Part shown: positions 50,176 through 64,000 of the stretch, in pieces
How positions within the stretch are numbered: the stretch's first letter is position 1
Layout: each line of letters starts with the position of its first letter
DNA from: Sulfitobacter indolifex
GTDB lineage: Bacteria > Pseudomonadota > Alphaproteobacteria > Rhodobacterales > Rhodobacteraceae
Direction: 5' to 3'
Assembly (NCBI RefSeq): GCF_022788655.1
Contig: NZ_CP084951.1
Span: forward strand, 2,046,001 to 2,110,000
DNA: 64,000 nucleotides
Notes under the pieces: generated by a model
Told to the model about the DNA's origin: nothing
Databases searched by the model: none
What the model saw: only the letters and a program-made list of their open reading frames with translations
Position numbers and translations under genes: made by a program

Positions 50176-50251
50176 CTGATGCAACCTCAAGCCCCCAAGT
50201 GTCGATTCCACTGCTCAAACGCTACCTCTATTTTCCCATTAATCAATAAAA

Positions 50252-50269
50252 ATTTTCGGATACGAAAAT
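50252..50269. promoter_or_regulatory. Perfect palindrome in the divergent DauA-like/XRE promoter
   Basis: ATTTTCG-GATA-CGAAAAT: seven-base arms, four-base centre, no mismatch, in an AT-rich intergenic stretch between the divergent operon and regulator genes. It is the natural candidate operator for the adjacent XRE-cupin protein. Confidence 0.6.
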
Positions 50270-50330
50270 ATTTCCCTTTCCGACAACCTGAGGGTAGTCT
50301 GTGTTTTTATCGCCAGAAGGACTATCGCCT

Positions 50331-50948
50331 ATGACCACTGCCCATGCCTTGGGCGCGAGACTCCGCCACCTTCGCAAGTCCCGCAAACTTACCTTGAGCG
50401 CGCTGGCATCCTTGTCGGGCGTCGCTGTTTCCACCATCTCCAAGATCGAAAACGGCGCGCTGTCACCAACGCTCGACAAGGTGTTGCGGCTGGCCGATGG
50501 GCTCGACTTGTCGATCGGCCAGTTGATTGGAGAAGAACAGATCGACGATCACAAAAGCCAACCAAACAGCCGTCTCCTGTCCGCACGCGCCGACGACGGG
50601 ATCGTAATCGACACGCAGAATTACGAATATCGCTATCTCTGTGCTGAGTTGACGAATAAACGCATGGTCCCGATACACGCGCGTATCAAGGCTTCAGGCT
50701 TGCAGGAGTTCGGCCCGTTGGAGCGCCATGGCGGAGAGGAGTTTCTGATTGTACTTGATGGTGAGATTGAAGTGCATACTGAATTCTATGCCCCCATTCG
50801 GCTAAGCCGCGGCGAGAGCATTTACCTCGACAGTACGATGGGCCATGCCTACGTTAGCGTTGGCGACCAAGAAGCAGAAGTATGCTGCATTTGTACGGAG
50901 CCTCTCCGCGTCACCGTCGACGGTCAAAGAGATCACGACAGTATTTAA
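50331..50948 (+). CDS. XRE-family regulator with cupin sensor domain
   Basis: A 205-residue regulator: helix-turn-helix at about residues 7-62 (LRHLRKSRKLTLSALASLSGV, STISKIENGALSPTLDKVLRLA) and a C-terminal cupin (about 120-195; ERHGGEEFLIVLDGEIEVHTEFYAPIRLSRGESIYLDSTMGHAY). Such proteins commonly sense a catabolic substrate and control a divergent operon. ATG at 50331 with AGAAGG about 11 bases upstream; the upstream frame from 50301 covers promoter DNA. Regulates, by inference, the D-amino-acid operon. Confidence 0.9.
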   Translation: MTTAHALGARLRHLRKSRKLTLSALASLSGVAVSTISKIENGALSPTLDKVLRLADGLDLSIGQLIGEEQIDDHKSQPNSRLLSARADDGIVIDTQNYEYRYLCAELTNKRMVPIHARIKASGLQEFGPLERHGGEEFLIVLDGEIEVHTEFYAPIRLSRGESIYLDSTMGHAYVSVGDQEAEVCCICTEPLRVTVDGQRDHDSI

Positions 50949-51318
50949 TCGCTGGTCGTCAAGGTTTGTTAACCCCTTGACCTCCAATCATCGTATCGGC
51001 TGCTTGTGTAAGTGCCGATCGGGTTCGACCCGTTAAATTGGTATATTTGCCGACACGTCACCTATCCACAATATGTCCGTTCGCGGCCCAAATCGGTCAT
51101 TCGTTCTCTGTCGCATCTTCGGAACTCAGCCGCCTCGCCGATCCGTATGCGCCGGTTGGACAAGGAACCGAATTCATGAAGATTGGGCACCTGCAAGTAA
51201 GCGAAGCTGACATAGCTCGGATTGTGCGCAACAAACCACGAGGCGGCCGACAGGCTTTGTGCATCGACCCGCTTATCCGGTTGCGCGAAGTAAGATAGAA
51301 AGCCGCGCGCGGTTTATG
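50949..51318. other. Intergenic gap, hairpin near its left end, no recognised gene
   Basis: About 370 bases. A GTCAAGG/CCTTGAC stem (50958-50981) without a T run follows the XRE gene and may protect or end its transcript. The short plus-strand frame at 51038-51298 resembles no family. The region marks the boundary between the two catabolic loci. Confidence 0.5.
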
Positions 51319-52689
51319 TCAGGGTTTTGCGGTCGGCGACAGCGACGGAATTTTAAACTTTACCACCAGTCCCCTGTCCTGCGGCAACAGCTCGACTTCA
51401 CCACCGTGACGGCGCAGGACATCTTGGACGATAGCAAGGCCAAGGCCGCTGCCCTCTCCTTCGCTCAATTGACCGAACCTTTGAAACGCGGCCTGCCCGC
51501 TGCTTTTGGGGATGCCAATGCCGTCATCTTGTACGATCAGCGCCGCATATCGTCCCTCGGCCATAGTACTCACGCGGATCGTTGAGAGGCCTGCACCACC
51601 ATGAGATAGCGCGTTTTCAAGTAGATTGATGATCGCCTCACCGAGCAGCACATTGTCCCCATTCACCGGCAAAGGGGCAGGATGTGGCTCAAAGCCAAAG
51701 CCAATGTCCCGCGACAGGACCGTCGGGGCAAAGTCGCTGCACACTTCGGCAGCGATAGAGTTGAGTTCAAGCGCATCGAACGTTGGTGTCTCATCGTAAC
51801 GCAACCGTTCAAGAGACAACAACTGATTGGCGAGGCGCGCAGATTTACGTGCGGCAGCAATCAATTCGCGTTCCCGCAAACGACGCTCTTGTGGATCGCT
51901 GACATCTGGCAAAACCTCGGCCAGCGACAACAATGCCGACGCGGGGTTGCGCAGCTGATGCGCGGCGTTGGAGATGAAGACCTGATGATCCTCGATGCTC
52001 TGCCGTACTTGCCCGAACAGCCGGTTCAACGTGGCGACAATGCCAGAAACCTCTGTCGGCACCGCGCGGCGAATATCACGCAGGTCATCGGGGGATCGGT
52101 GCTGAATAGCGTCTTGCAAATCGTTCAAGGGACGCAGGCCAATCTTCACCCCGAACCACACCACAAACGCAAGTGCGGCCATCAAGCTGGCGATCAGAGC
52201 AGCAGCGCGCCGCGCCAAGGCGGCGGCAAAGGCGTTCCGATCACTGTCCCTTTGCCAGACCGTTACAATCGTGTCGCCGGTCAAGTTGCCGATGGTCGTG
52301 CTTTCCGTCATCCGCAATACGCGCACCGGCTCGCCCCGATATTCCGCCATCGAGTAGTTCAGCCTATCCTCGCCTGTTCGGTTGCCGGATACCGGCGGAT
52401 AGGCATAGCCGGTGATGTAAATACCGCCGGGACCCGTTACGTGATAAAAAAGCTCACCTCCCCCGGCGTCAGAGACAAAATCCCGCGTGCTGGGTGACAG
52501 CGCGTCCCCACCAGAAATTGCCACATCACGGGAAATGGCCAAAGCTGCGGCCAGCAGGCTGCGGTCGAACAGGGTTTCAGAGGTGCGCTGCGCGACTTCA
52601 AAGCGCCAAAACCCCAGAATGACAGAGAGCAACAGCAGCGGCGGCAGGATCAGCAAGAAAAGCCGCGAGCGTAGCGACATCGCGGTCAT
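51319..52689 (-). CDS. tctE: TctE-type sensor histidine kinase
   Basis: A 456-residue inner-membrane kinase: helix at about 10-28, periplasmic sensor (about 30-160), second helix (about 163-183), HAMP-like linker, phosphorylated His244 in FISNAAHQLRNPASAL and ATPase domain with NLLENALSHG and GEGSGLGLAIVQD. The NAAHQLRNP form of the H box is typical of TctE. ATG overlaps the tctD stop (ATGA). Should sense an external tricarboxylate and phosphorylate TctD. Confidence 0.9.
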   Translation of the reverse strand: MTAMSLRSRLFLLILPPLLLLSVILGFWRFEVAQRTSETLFDRSLLAAALAISRDVAISGGDALSPSTRDFVSDAGGGELFYHVTGPGGIYITGYAYPPVSGNRTGEDRLNYSMAEYRGEPVRVLRMTESTTIGNLTGDTIVTVWQRDSDRNAFAAALARRAAALIASLMAALAFVVWFGVKIGLRPLNDLQDAIQHRSPDDLRDIRRAVPTEVSGIVATLNRLFGQVRQSIEDHQVFISNAAHQLRNPASALLSLAEVLPDVSDPQERRLRERELIAAARKSARLANQLLSLERLRYDETPTFDALELNSIAAEVCSDFAPTVLSRDIGFGFEPHPAPLPVNGDNVLLGEAIINLLENALSHGGAGLSTIRVSTMAEGRYAALIVQDDGIGIPKSSGQAAFQRFGQLSEGEGSGLGLAIVQDVLRRHGGEVELLPQDRGLVVKFKIPSLSPTAKP

Positions 52690-53357
52690 GCGCTGTCGAC
52701 CTCAAGCATATAGCCCAGCCCACGGGCGGCTTTGATGCGGATGCCGAAGGGCTCCAACCGTTTGCGAAGACGCGACACATGCGGCTCGATTGCGCTGTCT
52801 TCCTGCTCGGCCCCGGTGCCATAGACATGGGTGATCAACTGGGATTTCGACACGATCCGCCCGCGCCTTTCCAGCAGGCATTCAAGCGTCGCTAGCTCTT
52901 TGCGGGGGAAGGCCAGTGGCTGTTCATCCTTCAACAATTGGCGGTTAGTGCGGTCAAAGATCAAGGGACCGAGCGCGTCGCGGGCGGCAAACTCAAGGTT
53001 CTTGCGCCGCGCCATGGCCCGCAGTCGGGCCTCTAGCTCATCCATTTCGAAGGGCTTGGTCAGGTAATCGTCGGCCCCGGCATCCAGCCCTGCCACTCGC
53101 TCTGACGTCTCTGCCCGGGCGGTCAGCAGGATCACCGGCGTCCCGTCGCCACGGCGGCGCAGACGGGCCAGAACCTCCAACCCATCACTGCCGGGCAAGT
53201 TGCAATCGAGCACGATCAGGTCTGCCCCCTCATGGCGCAGAAAAGCGTCTGCCTCTTCACCGTCATGCAGCAGGTCCACCGCATGGCCACGATCCCGCAG
53301 GCGATGGGCAATTCCTTGCGCAAGGGCCTCATTGTCTTCGATGACTGCAATACGCAT
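52686..53357 (-). CDS. tctD: TctD-type OmpR-family response regulator
   Basis: A 223-residue regulator with receiver Asp51 (DLIVLDCNLPGSDGL), the conserved Lys in DDYLTKPFEMDELEARL, and a winged-helix DNA-binding domain ending HVSRLRKRLEPFGIRIKAARGLGYML. Divergent from tctC across 150 bp. Two palindromes lie directly before its start codon, so autoregulation is likely. Known homologues activate tct transport genes in response to tricarboxylates. Confidence 0.92.
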   Translation of the reverse strand: MRIAVIEDNEALAQGIAHRLRDRGHAVDLLHDGEEADAFLRHEGADLIVLDCNLPGSDGLEVLARLRRRGDGTPVILLTARAETSERVAGLDAGADDYLTKPFEMDELEARLRAMARRKNLEFAARDALGPLIFDRTNRQLLKDEQPLAFPRKELATLECLLERRGRIVSKSQLITHVYGTGAEQEDSAIEPHVSRLRKRLEPFGIRIKAARGLGYMLEVDSA

Positions 53358-53392
53358 GATTAAAACTTAATCCTAATGCGCAAGCTTTGCGC
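53358..53392. promoter_or_regulatory. Twin palindromes in the tctD-tctC divergent promoter
   Basis: GATTAA-AAC-TTAATC (53358-53372) and GCGCAA-GCT-TTGCGC (53378-53392) are both perfect 6+3+6 palindromes with centres 20 bp apart. The first touches the tctD start codon, leaving tctD without a well-placed Shine-Dalgarno. Candidate binding region for TctD or another regulator. Confidence 0.45.
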
Positions 53393-53507
53393 AAGGTTGG
53401 GAAGGCAGTGTGCCCGTGTTGGAGGAGGGATTCGTTCCCTAAAACAAATACGAATTACGGCAGACGTGAAAGTCTGACCGATACAAAATGTCTACGGGAG
53501 GACACCT

Positions 53508-54584
53508 ATGACTATCAAGTATTTCGCCGCAACCGCTGCATCCGCCGCTTGCCTTGCTGCCCCGGCGCTCGCCGAGGTTGACTTTGCAGGAAAGACGATC
53601 GAGTGGGTCATCCCCTTCTCGGAAACCGGTGGGTCGGCCAAATGGGCCAACTTCTTTGCCCCGCTTTTGTCCGAAGAACTGCCGGGCAACCCGACAGTCG
53701 TCGTCAAGTTCATGCCGGGTGCCGGTTCAACCAAAGGCGCCAACTGGTTCCAAGAGCAAGAGCATGACGAGGGCACGGTCCTGTTCGGCACCTCCGGCTC
53801 GACCCAGTTCCCATATCTGCTGGACGATCCGCGCGTGCGCTATGAGTACAGCGACTGGAACCCAGTTATGGCATCGGGCACCGGGGGCGTCGCCTATCTG
53901 AACCCCACGGACGGTAAGAAGTTCGACGGCACCGCCAATAACCTCAAAGACGTCAACTTCATCTACGGCTCGCAGGGGGCCACGCGCCTTGACCTCGTGC
54001 CGCTGCTGGCATGGGAAATGCTGGGCATGAACGTCGAGCCGGTCTTTGGCATCAAAGGCCGTGGCGATGGCCGCCTGATGTTTGAGCGCGGTGAGGCCAC
54101 GATCGACTATCAGACCTCGTCGAGCTACCTCGGTGCCTCTGCTGATCTGGTCGAAAAGGGTCAAGCCGTGCCGATGATGACATGGGGCGCGCTGGACGAG
54201 GACGGCAACATCGTTCGCGACCCCACCTTCCCCGAAATCGCGACCTTTAAGGAAGTCTGCGAAGCGACCGAAGGCTGTGAGACCGAAGGTGAGGCATGGG
54301 ACGCATGGAAAGCATTCTTTATCGCTGGTTTCCCTGTGCAAAAGATCGCCTTCCTGCCTGCAGGCTCACCCGACGATGTGATCGCAACTTACACAGCGGC
54401 TTTTGACGCAGTGCGCAACCGCGAAGACTTTGCTCAGATTGCCGAGAAACGCGTCGGTAAGTACCCCGTCTTTGTAGGCGAAGGCGCGGCCAAGGCGACG
54501 CAGCGCGGCACGACTGTCTCTGCGGAGGCGAAGGCCTTCGTCACCAACTGGCTGCAAGAAGCCTATGGCGTTTCGCTGAAGTAA
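53508..54584 (+). CDS. tctC: TctC-type tricarboxylate-binding protein
   Basis: A 358-residue periplasmic solute-binding protein of the tripartite tricarboxylate transporter family. Signal peptide MTIKYFAATAASAACLAAPALA is followed by TIEWVIPFSETGGSAKWANF, the usual start of TctC folds, and NPTVVVKFMPGAGSTKGANWF. GGAGGAC lies before the ATG. It is longer than typical TctC (about 320), with an extra Cys pair region ATEGCETEGEAWDAW. A terminator-like hairpin after the gene should give it higher expression than the permease. Confidence 0.92.
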   Translation: MTIKYFAATAASAACLAAPALAEVDFAGKTIEWVIPFSETGGSAKWANFFAPLLSEELPGNPTVVVKFMPGAGSTKGANWFQEQEHDEGTVLFGTSGSTQFPYLLDDPRVRYEYSDWNPVMASGTGGVAYLNPTDGKKFDGTANNLKDVNFIYGSQGATRLDLVPLLAWEMLGMNVEPVFGIKGRGDGRLMFERGEATIDYQTSSSYLGASADLVEKGQAVPMMTWGALDEDGNIVRDPTFPEIATFKEVCEATEGCETEGEAWDAWKAFFIAGFPVQKIAFLPAGSPDDVIATYTAAFDAVRNREDFAQIAEKRVGKYPVFVGEGAAKATQRGTTVSAEAKAFVTNWLQEAYGVSLK

Positions 54585-54597
54585 GCGAAACCCTACC

Positions 54598-54634
54598 GGC
54601 CCCGGGACAACCTCGGGGCCACCCCCCCTTTTTC
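54598..54634 (+). terminator. Intra-operon terminator between tctC and tctA
   Basis: GGCCCCG (54598-54604) pairs with CGGGGCC (54614-54620); a C run and five Ts follow (to 54634). This has the form of a rho-independent terminator and lies 22 bp before the tctA start. Partial read-through would explain how permease genes are still expressed at a lower level than the binding protein. Confidence 0.75.
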
Positions 54635-54655
54635 TAACATTTCGAGGTCGGTGCG

Positions 54656-56686
54656 ATGGATCTGTTCGCAACCGCTCTGCCTGCGCTTGGCGAGGCATGG
54701 GCTCTAATTCTGCAACCTATGGTTCTGGGATATCTGGTGCTGGGCGTGGTCATGGGCCTCGCGGTCGGGGTCTTTCCCGGTCTCGGTGGGATCGCGGGGC
54801 TGTCGCTGCTCTTGCCGTTCATGTTCGGCATGGACCCGGTGCTGGGTCTGGCGCTGATGATCGGCATGGTCGCGGTCGTGCCGACCTCTGACACTTTCGC
54901 CTCGGTCCTAATGGGCATCCCCGGCTCCTCGGCCAGCCAAGCCACGGTGCTTGACGGCTTCCCGATGGCTAAGAAGGGCCAAGCCGCGCGGGCGTTGTCT
55001 GCGGCGTTCACCTCATCGCTTTTCGGCGGGCTGGTCGGCGCGGCATTCCTGACAATGTTCATCGTCGTGGCGCGGCCCATCGTGTTGTCCTTTGGCCTGC
55101 CCGAGATGCTGATGATCTCAATCCTCGGCCTGTCGATGGTGGCGGTGCTGGCGGGGCGCGTGGCGCTCAAAGGTCTTGCGGCGGCGGGGCTCGGCCTGCT
55201 CATCGGCACCATCGGTGAGGCCGACGCGGGCGGCTCCCTGCGCATGGCGACCTATGACATCCCCTACCTGACGGACGGGCTGAAACTGGTGATCGTTGGC
55301 TTGGGCATCTTCGCGGTGCCAGAGATCGTATCGCTCCTGCGCCAAGACCGTGCCATCTCAAAAGAAGCCAAGCTTGGCGCAGGCTGGGGCGAAGGCGTGC
55401 GCGACTGGGTTGATAACAAATGGCTCTCGGTGCGCTGCTCGCTGATCGGCGTTGTGGTTGGCGTTATTCCGGGCCTTGGTGGCTCGGTCGTTGATTGGAT
55501 CGCCTATGGCCATGCGGTTCAAACGACGAAAGACAAATCGAACTTTGGCAAGGGCGAAGTGCGCGGCGTAATCGGGCCGGAAAGCTCGAACAACGCGAAA
55601 GAGGGCGGCGGCTTGGTCCCTACCCTGCTCTTCGGCATTCCCGGCTCTGGCTCCATGGCGATCTTCATTGGTGCCATCGCGCTGTTGGGATCTGGCGAGA
55701 TCGAAGTCGGCCCATCGATGCTGCGCGACAATCTCGACATCACCTATTCGATCGTATGGCTATTAGCGCTGGCCAATGTCGTTGGCACGCTGCTGTGCAT
55801 CGCGGCCTCGGGCGGGATCGCCAAGCTGACCACCATCCGCTTTACCTACCTCGCGCCGTTCCTCTTCATGCTGATCTCCTTCGCGGCGTTTCAGTCTGGG
55901 CAGAACTTTGAAGACATCCTCGCACTTTTCGCAATCGGCCTGATCGGCATCTTCCTGCGCCGCTTTGATTGGTCACGGCCGGCGTTCCTGATCGGTTTCG
56001 TTCTGTCCAACCCGGTCGAGAAATTCTCGAACCAAGCGTTTCAGATCGCCTCTTTCCGGTTCCGCAAATCCTTTGAGGAAGGCATGGAGTACATCTTCTC
56101 GCCTATCGTCATCGTTCTGCTGATCGTTACCGTCGTTTCGGTGGTGCTGGGCCTGCGTCAAGCCAAGTCGATCATGGCCGAAGGCGATGTCCAGTCCGGC
56201 TCTAAACGCGCACCGTTGGTCTTTTTGCTGATCATCATGGGCTATGTCGTGGCCGCGCTGATCAATGCCTCGCTGATCCCTGACTACAACATGACCGACA
56301 AGATCGTGCCGCTGGTTGTGGGTGGCATCGCATTGGCCGCGCTGCTGATCCTGCTGGTGCAGATGATCCTGCGCCCTGAAAGCAATGCGATCTTTGCCGA
56401 TAAGGAAGTCTCAGGCGAGGACGCAGATGCGCCCTATGGCCTTTGGGGTACTTTGGCTTGGTTCGCGGGGCTGATCGTTGCGACCTACTTCGTCGGGTTC
56501 ATCCTCGCGCTCTTGGGCTTTTTGGTCAGCTTCCTGCGGGTCCGCGCCCAAGCACATTGGCCGAAAACCTTAATCCTGACCGCCTGTGGCATTGCGCTGA
56601 TGTGCGTCATGGCTGGTGCGCTCAACCGCGATTTCCCGCCGGGTCTGCTGCAAGACGCAGTCGACTTGCCGTGGCCGCTGAATTGA
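54656..56686 (+). CDS. Tricarboxylate transporter permease, TctA fused to TctB
   Basis: A 676-residue membrane protein. Residues 1 to about 500 are TctA (VGVFPGLGGIAGLSLLLPFMFG, MGIPGSSASQATVLDGFPMAKKG, GVIPGLGGSVVDWIAYGHA, GPESSNNAKEGGGLVPTLLFG). The remaining part, from about residue 515, has four further helices in the pattern of the small TctB subunit (APLVFLLIIMGYVVAALINASL ... LVGFILALLGF-like end). No separate tctB gene is present, so the fusion likely supplies both subunits. Followed at 11 bp by the prpF-type gene. Confidence 0.9.
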   Translation: MDLFATALPALGEAWALILQPMVLGYLVLGVVMGLAVGVFPGLGGIAGLSLLLPFMFGMDPVLGLALMIGMVAVVPTSDTFASVLMGIPGSSASQATVLDGFPMAKKGQAARALSAAFTSSLFGGLVGAAFLTMFIVVARPIVLSFGLPEMLMISILGLSMVAVLAGRVALKGLAAAGLGLLIGTIGEADAGGSLRMATYDIPYLTDGLKLVIVGLGIFAVPEIVSLLRQDRAISKEAKLGAGWGEGVRDWVDNKWLSVRCSLIGVVVGVIPGLGGSVVDWIAYGHAVQTTKDKSNFGKGEVRGVIGPESSNNAKEGGGLVPTLLFGIPGSGSMAIFIGAIALLGSGEIEVGPSMLRDNLDITYSIVWLLALANVVGTLLCIAASGGIAKLTTIRFTYLAPFLFMLISFAAFQSGQNFEDILALFAIGLIGIFLRRFDWSRPAFLIGFVLSNPVEKFSNQAFQIASFRFRKSFEEGMEYIFSPIVIVLLIVTVVSVVLGLRQAKSIMAEGDVQSGSKRAPLVFLLIIMGYVVAALINASLIPDYNMTDKIVPLVVGGIALAALLILLVQMILRPESNAIFADKEVSGEDADAPYGLWGTLAWFAGLIVATYFVGFILALLGFLVSFLRVRAQAHWPKTLILTACGIALMCVMAGALNRDFPPGLLQDAVDLPWPLN

Positions 56687-56697
56687 GGAGCGTTGAG

Positions 56698-57786
56698 ATG
56701 ACCCAAACAGCTATCCCTTATCTCTTCATGCGCGGCGGTACATCGCGTGGGCCATATTTTAACCGCGCGGATCTGCCAGAGGATCGCGAAACATTGGCCG
56801 AAGTGCTGCTCGCCGTTGTCGGCTCCGGCCATCCGCTCAACATCGACGGCATCGGCGGCGGCGCGGCGGTGACGACCAAGGTCGCGATGCTTTCCCCGTC
56901 GGAGGACGAGTGGGCCGATGTGGACTACTTTTTTGCGCAGGTTTCGGTTGAAGATCGGTTGGTCGATTTCAAACCCACCTGCGGCAATATCCTGTCGGGT
57001 GTCGGCCCTGCGGCGGTCGAAATGGGCCTCGTTCGACCTGACGGCGATGTAACGGATGTGAAAATTCACGCCATCAATACTGGGGCCAAAGTGCTGGCCA
57101 AGGTGCTGACCCCCGGCGGCGTTTTGACCTATGACGGCGACACCGAGATCGCAGGCGTGCCCGGTGCTGGTGCCGCCGTGGCGCTGAACTTCATGGGGGT
57201 TGTCGGCTCTTCGACCGGGGCGTTTTTGCCCACGGGCAACATCCGCGATACCTTTGACGGGATCGAGGTCACCTGCATGGATGTGGCCATGCCAATGGTC
57301 ATCGCCCGCGCGACGGACTTCGGCCTGACCGGCTATGAGAGCGTCGCTGTTCTCGATGCAAACAAAGATTTCTTTGCGCGTATGGAAGCGATCCGTCTTC
57401 AGGCTGGAGCAGCAATGGGCATGGGGGACGTGTCAAAGTTCGTTACGCCAAAGTTCGGCCTGCTGGCCCCTGCCCGAGACGGCGGCACCATCACGACACG
57501 CTATTTTATGCCGTGGAACACGCACCCATCCATGGCGGTGACCGGGGCACAGTGCCTTGCCTCCTGCGCGCTCACGCCGGGCAGTGTGGCGGATGGGCTG
57601 CTCGACCGCCCCACCCAGAGCCCTGCCGATATAGTGCTCGAACACGCCTCGGGCACGATTGACGTGCTGGTGGATTACGAAACGTCAGAGGGGTTCGCGC
57701 TGAACTCCGCCGGGTTGCTGCGGACGGCACGGAAACTGGCGGATGGCTGTGTCTTTGTTCCGTCGCGCATCTGGGAGGGTCGCTGA
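56698..57786 (+). CDS. PrpF/GalD-family isomerase (aconitate isomerase or oxalomesaconate tautomerase)
   Basis: A 362-residue protein with the diaminopimelate-epimerase-like fold of PrpF. The start LFMRGGTSRGPYF, GIGGGAAVTTKVAML and catalytic-Cys motif FKPTCGNILSGVGPAAVE (Cys95) are diagnostic. Family members shift double bonds in 2-methylaconitate, aconitate or 4-oxalomesaconate. Beside a tricarboxylate transporter and tcuAB, interconversion of trans- and cis-aconitate is the most economical role (inference). Starts after GAGGAG; the longer open frame to 56443 is antisense-like shadow of tctA. Confidence 0.88.
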   Translation: MTQTAIPYLFMRGGTSRGPYFNRADLPEDRETLAEVLLAVVGSGHPLNIDGIGGGAAVTTKVAMLSPSEDEWADVDYFFAQVSVEDRLVDFKPTCGNILSGVGPAAVEMGLVRPDGDVTDVKIHAINTGAKVLAKVLTPGGVLTYDGDTEIAGVPGAGAAVALNFMGVVGSSTGAFLPTGNIRDTFDGIEVTCMDVAMPMVIARATDFGLTGYESVAVLDANKDFFARMEAIRLQAGAAMGMGDVSKFVTPKFGLLAPARDGGTITTRYFMPWNTHPSMAVTGAQCLASCALTPGSVADGLLDRPTQSPADIVLEHASGTIDVLVDYETSEGFALNSAGLLRTARKLADGCVFVPSRIWEGR

Positions 57787-57787
57787 T

Positions 57788-58603
57788 ATGCCCGTGATGA
57801 ACTTGCTTGTCGCCTTCAACGGCTCCGACGCCTCCGTCGCCGCATTGCGCTATGCCGCTTCTCTCGCCAAACAGCGTGGCGCGCATGTCACGGCGATCCT
57901 CGCCCATACCGCGCATGAGGTGATCGACCGTCGCTCGCGTTGGATCCCCGAAGAGGCCCGCGCCCTGCTGGAGGCTGCCAATAGCGAGATTGTGGCCGAG
58001 GTTACCCGACAGTTCGAAGAATTACGCCCCGCGCTTGATCTGGGTGACGCGCTGGATTTCCGTGATGAGACTGGCCGCGTTGACACGCTGCTTTCAGAGG
58101 GCGCGCGGTACTATGACATGCTGATCGTCGGTGCCCGCGCCGAGAGTGATGATGCCCATGTGACCCACCACCCCGATCGCATCGCGTTGCAATCCGGACG
58201 TCCGGTCATCGTGGTCCCGGCGGGCTATGACGCGGGCGCGCAGCATAGCCATGCGGCATTGGCGTGGGACGGCGGGCGCGCCGCCGCGCGGGCACTGTCA
58301 GACAGCCTGCGTCTGCTTGAGGCCGAAGGCCGGGTCAGTGTTTTGACGGTCGGAAAACGGACCTCCTGGCCGATCACCGATCTGATGACCCATCTTGACC
58401 GCCACGGCGTCGAAGCGGTGCATGAGAACTTCCCCACGAGCCATCCGGTGGCGCAAACTCTGCTGTCCTATTGCGAACGCCATGATCCCTCCCTGCTGGT
58501 CCTCGGAGCCTATGAGCATTCCAAGTTCCGCGAAGACTTCCTTGGCGGGGTGACTGCCGAGGTGCTGGAAAAGATCAAGATCCCCGTTTTGTTGTCCCAC
58601 TGA
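57788..58603 (+). CDS. Universal stress protein with two tandem Usp domains
   Basis: A 271-residue cytoplasmic protein. The first Usp domain starts MNLLVAFNGSDASVAALRYAASLAKQRG and ends SGRPVIVVPAGYD; the second, weaker, ends with LLVLGAYEHSKFREDFLGGVTAEVLEKIKIPVLLSH, which has the usual Usp phosphate-binding glycine pattern. The ATG is 1 bp beyond the prpF-type stop, so it belongs to the tct operon. Role in this locus is unknown. Confidence 0.88.
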   Translation: MPVMNLLVAFNGSDASVAALRYAASLAKQRGAHVTAILAHTAHEVIDRRSRWIPEEARALLEAANSEIVAEVTRQFEELRPALDLGDALDFRDETGRVDTLLSEGARYYDMLIVGARAESDDAHVTHHPDRIALQSGRPVIVVPAGYDAGAQHSHAALAWDGGRAAARALSDSLRLLEAEGRVSVLTVGKRTSWPITDLMTHLDRHGVEAVHENFPTSHPVAQTLLSYCERHDPSLLVLGAYEHSKFREDFLGGVTAEVLEKIKIPVLLSH

Positions 58604-58610
58604 GAAGCGA

Positions 58611-58769
58611 ATGATGACCAATTACGAGAAAATCCGCATCGCCCGCCATGATCTGGAAAAACTGCGCGCCGAGCTGATTGCCAGCCTCAACACGCAAAAA
58701 GACCGCGACCCTGATCTGCTCATCCTCCATGAACGGGTGAGCAAAGCGATCAACGCGCTTTCCGCGTAG
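58611..58769 (+). CDS. 52-residue helical protein in the tct operon
   Basis: A short gene between usp and the dehydrogenase, 7 bp after the former and 9 bp before the latter. The start is ATGATG with AGAAG 4-7 bases upstream. The translation begins MMTNYEKIRIARHDLEKLRA and predicts two amphipathic helices joined near DRDPD. The pattern recalls the two-helix Spo0E-like phosphatase fold, but the SQELD motif is replaced by HERVS, so no function is claimed. Spacing and composition support a real gene. Confidence 0.65.
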   Translation: MMTNYEKIRIARHDLEKLRAELIASLNTQKDRDPDLLILHERVSKAINALSA

Positions 58770-58778
58770 GGGGCTGCG

Positions 58779-59753
58779 ATGAAAGTCCATATCCTCGACG
58801 ACTGGTTCGACACCCTGCGCAGCCTGCCCTCCTTTGACCTGCTGGCAGGGCACGAAGTCACCGTCTGGACGGACCATCAGCCCGATGAGACCGTCTTGGC
58901 TGACCGTTTGCAGGATGCCGATTGCGTGGTGCTCTTTCGCGAGCGGACGAAGGTGACGCGGGGGCTGCTGGAGCGACTGCCGAACTTGCGGTTAATTTCG
59001 CAGCGCGGCGCCTATCCGCATGTGGATGTCGCGGCCTGCACTGACAACGGCGTGTTGCTGTGTTCCAACAAAGGGGCAGATGGGGCCAACCATGCGGCGG
59101 CGGAGTTGACCTTCGCGCTGATCCTCGCTGCCATGCGGCAACTGCCGCAGCAGATGGCCAGCGCCAAGGCTGGCAACTGGCAGATGGGCGTCGGGCGTAG
59201 CCTGCGCGGGCGGCGACTGGGGCTTTATGGCTATGGGCGCATTGGCCGTGTTGTGGCCGACTATGCGCGCGCATTCGGGATGGAGGTCGTCTGGTGGGGG
59301 TCCGATGCCGGGCGCACGCGGGCGAAAGGCGACGGTGAGACTGTCGCCGAAAGTCGCCAAGCGTTTTTCGGAACATGTGACGTGGTCTCGCTGCACCTGC
59401 GGCTCACCCCTGAGACTCGCGGCAGCGTCACGGCTGAAGACCTCAGCGCCATGCCGCCCCGCTCGATACTTGTGAACACCTCGCGGGCCGGGCTGATTGC
59501 CGAGGGCGCGTTGCTGCAGGCGCTAAATGCTGGTCATTTAGGCACGGCAGCGGTGGATGTCTTTGACACAGAGCCGCTGACCAACCCTAATGACCCCCTG
59601 CTCTCACACCCCAAGCTGATCGCCACCCCGCATATCGGCTTTGTCACCGAAGACGAATTCGACAAGCAATTCGCTGATATCTTCGCGCAGGTGAATGCTT
59701 ACGCGGCGGGCGCACCCATCCATATGATCAACCCTTCCGTCTACGTGCCATAA
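58779..59753 (+). CDS. D-2-hydroxyacid dehydrogenase family protein
   Basis: A 324-residue NAD(P)-dependent oxidoreductase of the D-isomer-specific family. The nucleotide-binding motif GLYGYGRIGRVVADYAR, the catalytic Arg region VNTSRAGLI and the final His in ATPHIGFVTEDEFD are present. It would interconvert a 2-oxo acid and its D-2-hydroxy acid. Last gene of the tctC-led run; the substrate may be a product or side product of tricarboxylate breakdown. Its end overlaps the converging AbrB-type gene by 26 bp. Confidence 0.88.
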   Translation: MKVHILDDWFDTLRSLPSFDLLAGHEVTVWTDHQPDETVLADRLQDADCVVLFRERTKVTRGLLERLPNLRLISQRGAYPHVDVAACTDNGVLLCSNKGADGANHAAAELTFALILAAMRQLPQQMASAKAGNWQMGVGRSLRGRRLGLYGYGRIGRVVADYARAFGMEVVWWGSDAGRTRAKGDGETVAESRQAFFGTCDVVSLHLRLTPETRGSVTAEDLSAMPPRSILVNTSRAGLIAEGALLQALNAGHLGTAAVDVFDTEPLTNPNDPLLSHPKLIATPHIGFVTEDEFDKQFADIFAQVNAYAAGAPIHMINPSVYVP

Positions 59754-60774
59754 GGCCCGCAACCAGCGGCGCGCCGACGATCACCAGCACGATGCGGGTC
59801 AGGTGGTGCGTGATGACAAAGCCCAGATCTGCGCCGGTTACGATGGCCAACACCGTCATTTCGGCCTGCCCCCCCGGCGCGAAGGCGAGGAACGCTTCGA
59901 CCGGATCGCCCAGCCCCATCCCGGTGACGAATGCGGTAAAGCCTGCCGCAAGCACCGCTAGTACCAGCACATAAGCGATGCCCGCCAGCACCACCCGCGT
60001 CAGCTCGCCCCATGTCACGCCCAGAAAATGCACGCCGATTCCGCAGCCGATAAAGAACTGCGCGGCAAGGATGGCCTCGGCTGGCGGGCGGCTGTGGATC
60101 AGGCCGGAAAGTGACAGCACGGCGGTGACGATCATGGGGCCAAGGATTGACGCGCCGAACAGGCCGATCCGCTCTCCCCCCTTCCAACCGATCAGGGCTG
60201 CGGCGGCCATCAAGGCCATCTCGCCCAGAGGTAGTTCAGTCACCGGGGCGCCTATGGGATTGGTCAGCCCCGCCCCGTAAGCCAGGGTCAGGAAAGCTGG
60301 CGCAAGGGTGACGATAATCAGCACCCGCGTGGCGTGGATCAACGACAACGCACGCGGATCGCCCCCCGCTTCTGCACCAAAGATCACCATGTCCTGCAAG
60401 CCGCCCGGCATCGCGGCGTAATAGGCCGTCGGCGCGTCGAACCCCCAGACCCGGCGGAAGAACGGGACACCGATTAAGCCGATGAGCGCGATGAAGACCG
60501 GCACCAGCGCCACCGACAGCGCCATTTGAGGAAGTTGGTGAAACAGGTCAGGCGTGATTGACGCCCCCACTGCCACCCCAAGGATCGTGCGCGCCGCGAT
60601 CGAGACCTGCCCAAAGCCTTTGATCGGCACGTTCGACAATGCCGCGATAAGGCAAGCCGCCATGGGGCCAAAAAGGAATGGCAGCGGCAGATCAAGCCAC
60701 CAAAAGAGCAAAGTTCCAGCCCCCGTAAGGATCAGGGTAAGCGCGCGGCTTCGGGTCGGTTGGGAGATGCGCAT
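59728..60774 (-). CDS. AbrB-family membrane protein (putative permease)
   Basis: A 348-residue protein with about ten helices arranged as two repeats of the AbrB duplication domain; LPFLFGPMAACLIAAL and IHATRVLIIVTLAPAFL in the first half and the FAPGGQAEMTVLAIVTGADLGFV block in the second are characteristic. The unrelated AbrB repressor shares only the name. ATG at 60774 preferred to the TTG at 60783. Divergent from the GntR gene across the operator palindrome, so probably part of the regulon; substrate unknown. Confidence 0.85.
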   Translation of the reverse strand: MRISQPTRSRALTLILTGAGTLLFWWLDLPLPFLFGPMAACLIAALSNVPIKGFGQVSIAARTILGVAVGASITPDLFHQLPQMALSVALVPVFIALIGLIGVPFFRRVWGFDAPTAYYAAMPGGLQDMVIFGAEAGGDPRALSLIHATRVLIIVTLAPAFLTLAYGAGLTNPIGAPVTELPLGEMALMAAAALIGWKGGERIGLFGASILGPMIVTAVLSLSGLIHSRPPAEAILAAQFFIGCGIGVHFLGVTWGELTRVVLAGIAYVLVLAVLAAGFTAFVTGMGLGDPVEAFLAFAPGGQAEMTVLAIVTGADLGFVITHHLTRIVLVIVGAPLVAGLMARRRKG

Positions 60775-60813
60775 CGGGTTCAACTCGCTTATTCTTCCGG
60801 GCTTGACCGCTAT

Positions 60814-60831
60814 TGGATACGATTGTATCCA
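60814..60831. promoter_or_regulatory. GntR-type operator between AbrB-like and GntR genes
   Basis: TGGATAC-GATT-GTATCCA is a perfect 7+4+7 palindrome. A further TTGTATGCA at 60834-60842 repeats the right half-site TTGTATCCA at 60824-60831 with one change, 10-11 bp on. The shape agrees with operators of FadR-type GntR regulators. It lies 33 bp before the regulator start. Confidence 0.7.
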
Positions 60832-60863
60832 CTTGTATGCAATAGCGACTGTAGGGGCATTTC

Positions 60864-61544
60864 ATGAGCGAAGAAGACCGCACACCGCAGGGCAACTCTG
60901 CCTATGCTCAGCTGATGGATGAACTTCGCGCCGGACGGCTGAACCCCGGCGACAGGCTGCGTGAGACTGAATTGGCAGAGCGTTTGGGCGTCTCCCGCAC
61001 CCCGGTGCGCGAGGCGATCCGCCAGTTGGAGGCTGACGGCGTCGTGGCTCACATCCCGCGCCAGGGTGCAAGCATCCGCACCCTGGACTATGCCGAGGTG
61101 ATGGAGCTTTACGAGATGCGCGCCGTGCTGGAGGGCACCGCCGCGCGACTGGCTGCCCGCGCCGCGTCGGACATCGAGATCGAAGAGTTGCAGGACATGA
61201 ACCGGCAACTCGCCACCCTAGGCAGCGTGCCCGAAGCCTTCACCCTCAACCGTCAGTTTCACGCAGCCCTCTTGGACGCAGCCAAGAACCGTTTCCTAAC
61301 CCGTTCGATCCATACGTTGCAGAAGACGCTGATGATCCTTGGCCCGACGACACTCACCGATCCGGCCCGCGCCGAGAGAGCGGTGGAGGAGCACTTTGGC
61401 ATACTCGACGCGATCAAGGCCCGCGATGCTACCCTCGCCGAAGCGGCCATGCGCGCGCATATCGAAGCGGCCCAGCGGGTCCGGGTTCGCGCCCTGCGCG
61501 CACAGCCGTCGCGCGATCAGACCTATGACGGAGACCTGCTGTGA
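60864..61544 (+). CDS. GntR-family regulator with FCD domain
   Basis: A 226-residue regulator: winged helix at about residues 10-75 (RLNPGDRLRETELAERLGVSRTPVREAIRQLEADG) and an all-helical FCD ligand domain (ALLDAAKNRFLTRSIHTLQKTLM, with histidines in NRQFHAALLD, EEHFGILDAI and RAHIEAAQRV that would bind a metal and a carboxylate). It overlaps tcuA by 4 bp, so regulator and enzyme are coupled. Likely represses tcuAB and the AbrB-like gene through the palindrome just upstream. Confidence 0.93.
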   Translation: MSEEDRTPQGNSAYAQLMDELRAGRLNPGDRLRETELAERLGVSRTPVREAIRQLEADGVVAHIPRQGASIRTLDYAEVMELYEMRAVLEGTAARLAARAASDIEIEELQDMNRQLATLGSVPEAFTLNRQFHAALLDAAKNRFLTRSIHTLQKTLMILGPTTLTDPARAERAVEEHFGILDAIKARDATLAEAAMRAHIEAAQRVRVRALRAQPSRDQTYDGDLL

Positions 61545-62926
61545 CCGAGCCTTACGATATTGTCGTGATCGGCGGCGGCAATGCAGCACTTTGTGCCGCG
61601 ATCACCGCAGCCGAGGCCGGCGCCCGCGTGCTGATCCTAGAAACGGCACCGAAACCCTACCGGGGCGGCAATTCGCGCCACACCCGGAACTTCCGCTGTA
61701 TGCACCACGGGCCGCTGGGGCCACTGGTGGAAAGCTACACCGAAGAGGAATACCTCGCCGATTTGATGAAGGTGACGGGTGGCCAGACGAATGAGCACCT
61801 CGCCCGCCTCGCCATCCGCACTTCAGAGGAATGCCTGCCTTGGATGGAGGAACATGGCGTTCGCTTTCAGCCATCGCTCTCTGGCACCCTGTCCTTGGCA
61901 CGCACCAACGCCTTCTTCCGTGGCGGCGGCAAAAGCCTTGTGAACGCCTATTACCGCACTGCCGAGGGGTTGGGCGTGGATGTGCTTTATGAAGCTGCCG
62001 TGACCCATCTGGAACTGGAAGGCGACCGGGTGACGCGGGTGGATTACACCCATGAGGGGGCCGCTAAGAGCCTTTCGCCCAAATCTGTCGTCGTTGCTTC
62101 TGGTGGCTTTCAGGCGGATACCGACTGGCTGGCGCGCGCATGGGGACCAGCGGCGAAGAACTTTTTGATCCGCGGCACACCCTACAATCGCGGCGTGGTA
62201 CTGGCGGACCTGCTGGACCAAGGCATCGCACAGGTGGGCGACCCGACCCAATGCCATGCTGTCGCCATTGACGGGCGCGCGCCAAAGTTTGACGGCGGGA
62301 TCGTAACGCGGCTGGACTGCGTGCCCTTCTCCATCGTCGTCAACAAGGACGCGCAGCGTTTCTATGATGAGGGCGAAGATGTCTGGCCCAAACGCTACGC
62401 GATCTGGGGCCGTTTGGTGGCTGCCCAGCCCGAGCAGGTCGGTTATGTCATCATTGATGCGAAATCGTTGAACCTGTTCATGCCTTCCGTTTTTCCACCG
62501 ATTAAAGCCGATACGCTGGCGGAACTGGCCGGAAAGATGGGCCTACCCGCTGACGCGCTGGAGCAAACCGTGGCTGAGTTCAACGCCGCCTGCGGCGATC
62601 AAAGTGCCTTTCACTCCACCGAGCTTGACGGCGTGGCAACCACTGGGCTCACCCCGCCCAAGACGAACTGGGCGCGACCGATCACAGAGCCGCCGTTTTA
62701 CGGCTACAGCCTGCGCACCGGCGTCACTTTTACCTATCTCGGGCTGAAAGTGGATGAAAATGCGCAGTGTTCTAGCGCCGACCAGCCGGTCAGCAACCTC
62801 TGGGCGGCGGGGGAAACCATGGCGGGCTCAATCTTGGGCCAAGGCTATCTCGCCGGGTTTGGCATGACCATCGGCACCGTCTTCGGACGTATCGCAGGTA
62901 AGGAGGCCGCAGCTCATGCAAACTGA
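61541..62926 (+). CDS. tcuA: Tricarballylate dehydrogenase TcuA
   Basis: A 461-residue FAD enzyme of the succinate dehydrogenase/fumarate reductase flavoprotein superfamily. It starts YDIVVIGGGNAALCAAITAAEAG (GGGNAA at 11-16) and has YRGGNSRHTRNFRCMHHGP, the pattern of TcuA, which oxidises tricarballylate to cis-aconitate in Salmonella. The C-terminal GETMAGSILGQGYLAGFGMTIG closes the FAD site. Overlaps tcuB by 11 bp. Substrate assignment is by homology plus tctABC-like transport genes nearby. Confidence 0.9.
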   Translation: MTEPYDIVVIGGGNAALCAAITAAEAGARVLILETAPKPYRGGNSRHTRNFRCMHHGPLGPLVESYTEEEYLADLMKVTGGQTNEHLARLAIRTSEECLPWMEEHGVRFQPSLSGTLSLARTNAFFRGGGKSLVNAYYRTAEGLGVDVLYEAAVTHLELEGDRVTRVDYTHEGAAKSLSPKSVVVASGGFQADTDWLARAWGPAAKNFLIRGTPYNRGVVLADLLDQGIAQVGDPTQCHAVAIDGRAPKFDGGIVTRLDCVPFSIVVNKDAQRFYDEGEDVWPKRYAIWGRLVAAQPEQVGYVIIDAKSLNLFMPSVFPPIKADTLAELAGKMGLPADALEQTVAEFNAACGDQSAFHSTELDGVATTGLTPPKTNWARPITEPPFYGYSLRTGVTFTYLGLKVDENAQCSSADQPVSNLWAAGETMAGSILGQGYLAGFGMTIGTVFGRIAGKEAAAHAN

Positions 62927-63983
62927 TCTACTCCAAGAGGCGCGCCGTCAGGCCGAGATCTGCAACGCTTGCCGTTATTGCGAGGGCTACTGTTCTGTCT
63001 TCCCGGCTCTCCAAGCCGACCGCGCCTTCTCTGACGGGGATCTGACGCAACTTGCAAACCTCTGTCACAACTGTCGTGGCTGCTACTACGCGTGCCAATA
63101 CACCGCCCCGCATGAGTTTGAGCTGAACCTGCCGCAAGCCTTGGCCGATGTGCGCCAAGACAGCTGGGAAGAGTTCGCCTTTCCCCGCGCCGCCGGGAAA
63201 GCCTTTCAGAAAAATGGCCTCGCCATCGTGCTCGCCACCATCTTAGGCTTTGCCTTGCTGTTTTGGGCCGCCCGTGCGCTGGCCGCCGCGGGGGGCGAAG
63301 GTTTCTACGCGGTGCTGTCTCACAATGCGATGGTAGCGATCTTCTTGCCCGCCTTTCTATTTCCACTCTTCAGCATCGCCATCGGTCTGCGGCGTTATTG
63401 GCAAACGGTTGGCGGTGCCCCGGTTCGCCTATCTCACTTAAGCGGAGCCATCGCCTCGATTGCCGACATGCGCAACCTCAAGGGCGGCCACGGCGACGGC
63501 TGCAACTTTGAGGACGAAGACCGTTTCACCCATGCCCGGCGCTATGCGCATCAGGCGATTATGTATGGCTTTCTTCTGTGTTTCGCGTCGACCAGCGTGG
63601 GAACACTGATGCACTATCTACTGAATATGCCCGCCCCCTATGGGCTGTTCTCGGCGCCCAAGGTTTTGGGGCTCTCCGGTGGTGTTCTATTGGTGTTGGG
63701 CTGTAGCAAGATGGTCTGGCTCAAGCTGCGCTCGGACAAATCGCTCGGCGCGACCAATGCCTTTGGGGGAGAGATTGCTTTTACCGGGCTGTTGGGGTTT
63801 GTCGGGTTGAGCGGACTGTTGCTCTATGCGGCAAGTGGCACTGGCTGGATGCCGGGCCTTTTGGTCATACACCTTGGCGCGGTGCTGGCGTTCTTTCTGC
63901 TGACACCTTTCACCAAAATGGCGCATGGGTTTTACCGAATGGCGGCATTGGTAAGGGATGCGCAGAGGCGTGAGGGGGGCTAA
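62916..63983 (+). CDS. tcuB: TcuB, Fe-S membrane partner of tricarballylate dehydrogenase
   Basis: A 355-residue protein that reoxidises TcuA-bound FADH2 by passing electrons to the membrane. Two Cys clusters lie at Cys16/19/22/26 (ICNACRYCEGYC) and Cys50/53/56/60 (LCHNCRGCYYAC), suited to two 4Fe-4S centres. Six or so membrane helices follow, with conserved histidines (HARRYAHQAIMYGF, LMHYLLNM) that may ligate haem. Stop is 17 bp from the right edge of the window. Confidence 0.92.
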   Translation: MQTDLLQEARRQAEICNACRYCEGYCSVFPALQADRAFSDGDLTQLANLCHNCRGCYYACQYTAPHEFELNLPQALADVRQDSWEEFAFPRAAGKAFQKNGLAIVLATILGFALLFWAARALAAAGGEGFYAVLSHNAMVAIFLPAFLFPLFSIAIGLRRYWQTVGGAPVRLSHLSGAIASIADMRNLKGGHGDGCNFEDEDRFTHARRYAHQAIMYGFLLCFASTSVGTLMHYLLNMPAPYGLFSAPKVLGLSGGVLLVLGCSKMVWLKLRSDKSLGATNAFGGEIAFTGLLGFVGLSGLLLYAASGTGWMPGLLVIHLGAVLAFFLLTPFTKMAHGFYRMAALVRDAQRREGG

Positions 63984-64000
63984 CTTTGCGCTCTGCGAGA

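Follow-up and report, generated by a model that had tools for sequence, protein, structure and literature searches.

The window analysed here is a stretch of 64,000 nucleotides from Sulfitobacter indolifex (bases 2046001–2110000 of contig 1; genome 4.5 Mb), and its positions 51319–63983 hold a locus that combines a tripartite tricarboxylate transporter (TTT) with a PrpF-family isomerase and the tcuAB genes. An original prediction, made from the letters alone, had read this locus as one for tricarballylate and trans-aconitate. Every gene that was named there is an open frame within its coordinates and matches the expected families, although the list was incomplete, as an AbrB-family gene went unmentioned. 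The locus as a whole is best explained, with moderate confidence, as two modules for the uptake and breakdown of aconitate-like tricarboxylates. This explanation rests on the observed gene content, conservation, co-occurrence, two control sites, the position of the isomerase in trees and its catalytic residues.

Genes of the locus

The left end is formed by two genes on the minus strand, which encode a TctE-like sensor histidine kinase (51319–52689; Pfam 2CSK_N and HATPase_c) and a TctD-like response regulator (52686–53357), whose top NCBIfam match is the TctD model NF012023 (214.6 bits, under the cut-off of 337). These face a run of genes on the plus strand: a divergent TctC-type periplasmic binding protein (53508–54584), a TctA–TctB fusion permease of 676 amino acids (54656–56686), the isomerase of 362 amino acids (56698–57786, with its start codon at 56698), a tandem universal stress protein (Usp; 57788–58603; PF00582 in two stretches), a 52-residue protein (58611–58769; an open frame) and a D-isomer-specific 2-hydroxyacid dehydrogenase (58779–59753; PF02826 and PF00389). 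As the gaps between them are only 1–71 bases, this run is read as one operon. The AbrB-family membrane protein (59728–60783, minus strand; PF05145) lies between the dehydrogenase and a second plus-strand group, which consists of a GntR-FCD regulator (60864–61544; PF00392 and PF07729), the predicted FAD-dependent tricarballylate dehydrogenase TcuA (61541–62926) and TcuB, a predicted iron–sulphur membrane electron carrier (62916–63983). The ends of these last three genes overlap.

The tcuAB assignment is upheld by curated tricarballylate models. TcuA scores 678.7 bits against NF006130 (cut-off 369) and 606 against TIGR02485 (cut-off 372.55), while TcuB passes the equivalog model TIGR02484 (351.4 versus 246.6 bits) and stays under the cut-off of 524 of the subfamily model NF011607 (365.2 bits). 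From these matches, a function in tricarballylate oxidation is the best reading of the pair.

The TctA half of the fusion permease is plainly recognised (PF01970, E 2.5e-112), and the TctB half, in the C-terminal part, is a weak match (PF07331, 21.9 bits versus the Pfam cut-off of 29.1). The binding protein had been called TctC in the original prediction; a relationship to TctC stands by profile–profile comparison, but the protein is so divergent that it has no ordinary family match. It gave no Pfam or NCBIfam match at 0.001 (Pfam TctC, E = 0.17), and 6 of 14 aligned relatives reach the Pfam TctC model at E up to 1, the best at 0.0022. When its profile was compared by hhalign with four reference TctC proteins that each pass Pfam TctC, three of this genome and one of a relative, the probability was 96.9 % (E 1.7e-10, 272 columns). 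A PDB search with the profile of the 14 relatives returned only two TctC/Bug chains (E 0.05) and an unrelated chain (0.51). The closest named TctC among the matches listed, from which records very near the window are possibly omitted, is that of Sulfitobacter dubius (97 %).

Could the transporter simply be a citrate carrier, like Salmonella TctDE-TctCBA? The neighbouring TctDE would fit, and tctABC of Ruegeria pomeroyi, a roseobacter, is a proven citrate carrier (PMC10130141; papers given by PMC number are cited throughout from excerpts of their text). The genome, however, holds a second TctED/TctCBA set elsewhere, with separate TctC, TctB and TctA genes that are all Pfam-positive, and with the roseobacter carrier in mind citrate is probably served there. 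The window TctC is too divergent for Pfam, and both the isomerase and TcuAB would be superfluous for citrate. The plain citrate carrier is thus very unlikely, and from the gene layout we think that citrate is not the main ligand of the window transporter. Two further reports, on Tct expression in estuaries (PMC11837527) and on a Vibrio TTT deletion that left protocatechuate uptake unchanged (PMC13253662), add nothing to the case in the excerpts at hand.

Conservation and control sites

Conservation was followed in a family sample of 149 genomes from 148 genera, about one per genus. A TctC relative was counted as present at 45 % identity or more and TcuA at 56 % or more, which left out nine TctC rows below 45 %, eight TcuA rows at 37–40 % and one 67-residue PrpF fragment (G098). 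TctC relatives are found in 38 genomes and TcuA in 37, and both in 32 (Fisher's exact p 2.5e-21, uncorrected for descent). The two lie within 15 kb of each other in 21 of the 32, and in the other 11 the distance exceeds 15 kb or the genes are on different contigs, owing in part to broken contigs. In addition, a PrpF-family gene lies within 5 kb of 40 of the 42 TctC copies. The co-occurrence in relatives that the original prediction had proposed to look for is clear, and the absence that would have spoken against it was not found. The locus is accessory, as G055, of the same genus, has no TctC, TcuA or isomerase match at the thresholds used.

A second, named set comprises the best 80 of 471 stretches coding for a TctC relative in a scan of GTDB contigs; as 26 of the 80 are Ruegeria, its members are not independent. 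Loci were called complete when the sequence reached 2.5 kb upstream and 9.4 kb downstream of TctC (75 of 80 named, 32 of 40 in the family set, with four loci shared between the sets), and genes were tallied at 40 % identity or more, any match being accepted for TctD, TctE and the 52-residue protein. All 75 complete named loci have TctDE and the PrpF-type gene; TcuA and TcuB are each present in 61, AbrB and GntR each in 56, a LysR gene in 8 and an isocitrate-dehydrogenase-like gene in 11. Across the 32 family-set loci the counts are 32 for the PrpF-type gene, 24 for TctD, 23 for TctE, 20 for AbrB, 19 for TcuA and 16 for GntR. The parts are known ones and their combination is well conserved; as the set recurs in many genera, it is more than chance.

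The two halves of the locus carry different control sites. A direct repeat GCAAGCTT-TGC-GCAAGGTT (53380–53398, plus strand), the proposed TctD box, is exact in the window, where 0.03 copies are expected at up to one mismatch; this pattern was run on the window only. Copies of GCAAGNTT occur twice or more in 82 of 101 distinct TctD–TctC gaps, are missing from 5 and are absent from all 56 distinct AbrB–GntR gaps. The AbrB–GntR gap instead has a triple TGnATnCA box with a 10-base period (60814–60841, plus strand), the proposed GntR operator. Its three units are found in all 60 loci examined (56 distinct sequences), scoring 15–18 of 18 positions compared with 13 for the best of 180 shuffles, at most 11 in 105 TctD–TctC gaps (101 distinct) and at most 10 in 11 LysR–TcuA gaps. 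The box also precedes GntR in four of five cases with another left neighbour, and the 4.5 Mb genome has one such site at up to three mismatches, that of the window. The units were derived from the sequences and then scored, so this was not a blind test, and many of the loci are closely related.

With separate sites, the halves look like two modules rather than one operon with one switch. We infer which regulator binds which site, and the simplest reading would have two sensors, TctE outside the cell and GntR inside. The original prediction had GntR in place of the LysR regulator of Salmonella. This describes the window and part of its relatives; in 11 of 120 retrieved loci a LysR gene faces TcuA, and one of these, L081, has GntR as well.

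That the locus might consist of unrelated neighbours, namely a TctDE-controlled transporter and isomerase beside an independent tcuAB, joined by chance or shared inheritance, is suggested by the different control sites, by the convergent and divergent gene order and by the 11 genomes in which the halves are not within 15 kb. The co-occurrence, however, persists even when they are apart (32/38 and 32/37, in a sample of about one genome per genus). Moreover, in four of the six TctC genomes without TcuA (G045, G049, G081 and G146), a TcuA-like flavoprotein of 34–36 % identity, without TcuB, stands in TcuA's place beside the transporter and the same neighbours. All four of these proteins pass NF006130 (534–552 bits versus 369) and fail TIGR02485 (227–244 versus 372.55). 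In L216 and L217, two loci of one genus in another family of the same class, TctDE, the transporter, the isomerase and an isocitrate-dehydrogenase-like gene are again side by side with GntR and TcuAB. An origin as mere neighbours is improbable on these grounds.

At the level of loci, this single TcuA-like gene (34–36 %) replaces TcuAB in L040, L041, L071 and L076, where TcuB is missing and the other neighbours are unchanged; all four copies pass NF006130 and fail TIGR02485. A different arrangement is seen in L172 (4002–13149) and L173 (4946–13934), in which a TcuA-like flavoprotein, 41–42 % identical to the other TcuA-like type, lies beside a PrpF homologue together with methylisocitrate-lyase-like, MmgE/PrpD-like and class III CoA-transferase genes; the family matches, made for L172 only, are all below cut-off. 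From the gene content, these two look like a methylcitrate-style route starting from a saturated tricarboxylate.

The AbrB-family gene co-occurs with the transporter. At 50 % identity or more it is present in 35 of the 38 TctC genomes, including all 6 without TcuA, in 2 of the 5 TcuA genomes without TctC and in 21 of the 106 with neither; rows under 50 % and two partial matches were dropped, and the last count is 23 if the partials are included. AbrB was also considered as the replacement for the Salmonella carrier TcuC, as its gene shares the AbrB–GntR gap with TcuAB, and these genome counts speak against it.

At its right end, the locus finishes inside the window, since queC, queE and queF, each over its own cut-off, come after TcuB, with a queD-like frame between them (read by eye). 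A search of 50900–64000 for RNA families at gathering thresholds matched nothing. Upstream, at 47762–50948, lie a tripartite ATP-independent periplasmic (TRAP) large permease, a glycine-oxidase-like FAD oxidoreductase and a facing XRE-type regulator with a cupin-like tail (read by eye), which are probably a separate locus.

The isomerase and the proposed pathway

The isomerase had been described as PrpF-type. It does belong to the PrpF family with the catalytic residues kept, but it is not PrpF proper: the model for PrpF 2-methylaconitate isomerase, TIGR02334, gives 164.7 bits (cut-off 440.55), and the one that it passes is NF033377, for 4-oxalomesaconate tautomerase (466.6 bits, cut-off 440). 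Of 7716 relatives scored, 120 were listed, and many of the named ones carry the same tautomerase name; a few are called isomerase, PrpF or hypothetical protein. The closest isomerase cluster among the matches listed is named for Sulfitobacter pontiacus (95 %). Among chains with a solved structure, those of E. coli YbhH and of LigU are the closest, with 48 % and 47 % identity to the window enzyme.

Trees separate these two. The first, with 56 sequences, groups the TTT-linked clade with YbhH (support 91 at the base and 100 inside) and places LigU in the other clade (support 100) with the three LigB-linked enzymes that were kept. Here, matches under about 300 residues or with an internal stop were removed and similar ones collapsed (145 to 56), which left three of the seven LigB-linked copies. 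L186, a TTT-linked copy of the 43–50 % identity class, also falls on the YbhH side. A second tree with ten more loci, for which the own clade had been thinned in part (47 sequences), gave the same split, with support of 82 and 100 on the YbhH side and 100 on the LigU side.

The gene neighbourhoods differ as well. Of 40 own-clade copies, 1 has a LigB-family gene within 20 kb, versus 7 of 35 copies of the 43–50 % class; such a gene is present anywhere in the genome for 8 of 37 versus 19 of 35. The window genome has one PrpF-family gene; a search of it for LigB-family genes found none, other dioxygenase types being outside that search, and no ligK aldolase reaches the cut-off, the better of two weaker matches having 74.9 bits versus 304.5. 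Given the tree position with YbhH apart from LigU and the lack of a LigB-family or above-cut-off ligK gene, the name 4-oxalomesaconate tautomerase is probably wrong for this isomerase. If so, the public annotation model overreaches, and roseobacter entries under this name are misnamed and imply an aromatic breakdown that is possibly absent.

A true 4-oxalomesaconate tautomerase, with the locus feeding a protocatechuate- or gallate-type cleavage pathway, would agree with the curated model, with the names of so many relatives and with the identity to LigU. It would also agree with the distant locus L218 (4657–12388). There, a TctC–TctAB transporter that is 67–68 % identical to the window's belongs to a cluster of the gallate/oxalomesaconate type, which also contains a ligK-type aldolase (377 bits versus 179), an enzyme of the LigU clade, a protein of the PIG-L family and a dioxygenase-like protein of the glyoxalase fold. 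GalB-type hydratases belong to the PIG-L family. As the dioxygenase of L218 is not of the LigB type, the absence of LigB is not enough by itself to dismiss a pathway of this kind. The lack of LigB-family and above-cut-off ligK genes in the window genome, the rarer LigB linkage of its clade (though 28 of the 35 copies of the other class are unlinked too) and the trees nonetheless led to its rejection as the principal physiological role, and it was kept as a doubtful rival for the sake of L218. 4-Oxalomesaconate is trans-aconitate lengthened by a carbonyl, and a binding protein that recognises the end common to the two acids could accept either, which would reconcile L218 with an aconitate locus. 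Considering this cluster, the range of ligands might extend beyond aconitate and tricarballylate.

The catalytic residues are those known from PrpF. SoPrpF of Shewanella interconverts cis- and trans-aconitate; K73 is needed for this and C107 is also important, according to the excerpted text of PMC5690661. These residues correspond to K61 and C95 of the window isomerase, and both are kept in all 56 aligned sequences. As the enzyme groups with E. coli YbhH, a protein of unknown function, its activity on aconitate is a prediction from the sequence.

A phylum-level sample of 398 genomes contains 14 with a TctC relative (E 1e-15), of which 9 are outside the family. In six of the nine loci outside the family, and in L225 within it, a LysR gene faces a bare isomerase–TctC–TctAB unit, and the tree places the isomerases of these units on the side of YbhH. 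The remaining three of the nine are L216, L217 and L218.

The two-module explanation can be put as follows. Module 1 would comprise TctC, TctAB, the YbhH-type isomerase, Usp, the 52-residue protein and the dehydrogenase, and would be switched on by the facing TctE/TctD pair. Here, TctC would capture an unsaturated tricarboxylate in the periplasm, most likely trans-aconitate, and TctAB would import it. The isomerase would then act by 1,3-allylic proton transfer, with K61 and C95 involved, to move the double bond and yield cis-aconitate for the housekeeping tricarboxylic acid (TCA) cycle. Module 2 would comprise GntR, TcuA, TcuB and the divergent AbrB gene, with GntR acting on the triple box to control it; tricarballylate would be oxidised by TcuA to cis-aconitate and TcuB would pass the electrons on to quinone. 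The TTT is probably the supplier of both modules, and one transporter feeding two entries to the TCA cycle, as originally predicted, is plausible. If this is true, a widespread group of marine bacteria has a dedicated route for trans-aconitate and tricarballylate, which, to our knowledge, are not usually counted as marine carbon sources.

The proposed pathway leaves the dehydrogenase, AbrB, Usp and the 52-residue protein without explanation. Usp is present in 41 of the 75 complete named loci and the 52-residue protein in 17, next to Usp in each listed case; the small protein has no NCBIfam match and a single, weak Pfam match (E 0.059), and both are passengers in a subset of loci. The dehydrogenase is found in 71 of the 75, and its closest solved chains, 3gg9 and 4s1v, are titled only phosphoglycerate-dehydrogenase-like.

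Two further genes were seen in other versions of the locus. A gene resembling isocitrate, homoisocitrate or isopropylmalate dehydrogenase occurs in L069 (10708–11913), L039, L049, L066, L068 and L070, mostly between TctAB and the isomerase, and the copy that was tested against curated models stays under every cut-off. An acetolactate-synthase-like thiamine enzyme lies in or near the core locus in L042, L044, L046, L051, L056 and L073, accompanied in several of these by a TauE-like membrane protein (read by eye).

The dehydrogenase is central to another explanation, in which it would act in series with the isomerase and the TcuA-type flavoprotein on one unfamiliar hydroxy- or oxo-tricarboxylate, with trans-aconitate a mere look-alike. 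It is kept nearly as tightly as the isomerase in the named set (71/75 versus 75/75), an isocitrate/isopropylmalate-family dehydrogenase joins 11 of the 75 loci, and the gene sets of L172 and L173 would be series chemistry on tricarboxylates. In the family set, however, the dehydrogenase is in only 21 of 32 loci, six of the phylum-level versions are transporter and isomerase only, and TcuAB carries a control site of its own and, in 11 of 32 genomes, does not lie within 15 kb of TctC. On balance a series of this kind is unlikely, albeit the strongest of the rivals considered.

Several of these results weigh against the two-module explanation itself. The NCBI model names its isomerase an oxalomesaconate tautomerase, and the transporter of L218 sits in a cluster of that type. 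The dehydrogenase, for all its conservation, has no place in the breakdown of aconitate or tricarballylate, and the isocitrate/isopropylmalate-dehydrogenase-like gene (11/75) and the thiamine-enzyme gene found elsewhere suggest more chemistry. Two TctC genomes, G054 and G148, showed no TcuA at E 1e-60 or in the retrieved locus, and five genomes have TcuA without TctC. The argument about citrate, including the likeness to the Ruegeria pomeroyi carrier, is one of gene layout. Finally, we infer all substrates and the direction of flow from the genes themselves.

Comparison with known systems

No description of this gene set was found in the excerpts returned from open-licence full-text literature, nor did the search of open-licence full text find anything that pairs tricarballylate with Roseobacter or 4-oxalomesaconate tautomerase with a tripartite tricarboxylate system. 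The nearest parts are found in separate systems. Salmonella tcuABC has the same two-gene order of TcuA and TcuB, with both window proteins passing the curated models. There, TcuC is a carrier of the major facilitator superfamily (MFS) and the tcu regulator is of the LysR type, whereas the window has GntR, the TTT and an AbrB-family membrane protein. TcuC is named as the transporter in the excerpt of PMC10468695. The original prediction had the TTT replace this carrier, and indeed no MFS gene lies between 51319 and 63983; given the co-occurrence of AbrB with the transporter (35/38 genomes), the TTT may not be the sole transport part.

The tctABC carrier of Ruegeria pomeroyi is of the same tripartite class, but it has three genes by name instead of a divergent TctC with a fused TctAB, and it is set apart here by its description (PMC10130141). 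LigU/GalD, the 4-oxalomesaconate isomerases, share the Pfam family, the NCBI model and the catalytic lysine and cysteine with the window enzyme. They differ in forming a separate clade, and the 43–50 % class, to which most sampled LigU relatives belong, is LigB-linked in 7 of 35 cases compared with 1 of 40 for the window clade.

Closer in design are two systems with LysR regulators. The trans-aconitate system tarR-tarA-tarB of Bacillus velezensis is described, in the excerpted text of PMC11495376, as a LysR regulator, a PrpF-family aconitate isomerase and a carrier. As in the window, a PrpF-family isomerase adjoins a dedicated carrier, and LysR is the regulator as in the window unit's phylum-level relatives; the carrier is MFS rather than TTT, LysR stands where the window has TctDE, and TarA is likened by description only. 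In E. coli ybhD-ybhH-ybhI-ybhJ, an isomerase of the same clade (48 %) adjoins ybhI, called a putative tricarboxylate transporter. This unit differs in its single-gene carrier, LysR regulator and putative hydratase, and has been tied to L-malate (PMC9068703).

The bare LysR–isomerase–TctC–TctAB layout matches both ybhD-ybhH-ybhI and tarR-tarA-tarB. It is tentatively proposed, with less confidence than the two-module explanation, that proteins of the YbhH type form a class of tricarboxylate isomerases in its own right, misnamed and most likely trans-aconitate isomerases. If true, YbhH, whose structure has been solved and for which no role in E. coli is known, gains a function that can be tested. 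The roseobacter locus, the distant LysR–isomerase–TTT unit of Pseudomonadota and E. coli ybhHIJ would then be one functional kind with interchangeable carriers, and in roseobacters the unit would have been joined to tricarballylate oxidation, with a second regulator acting at a triple-box operator.

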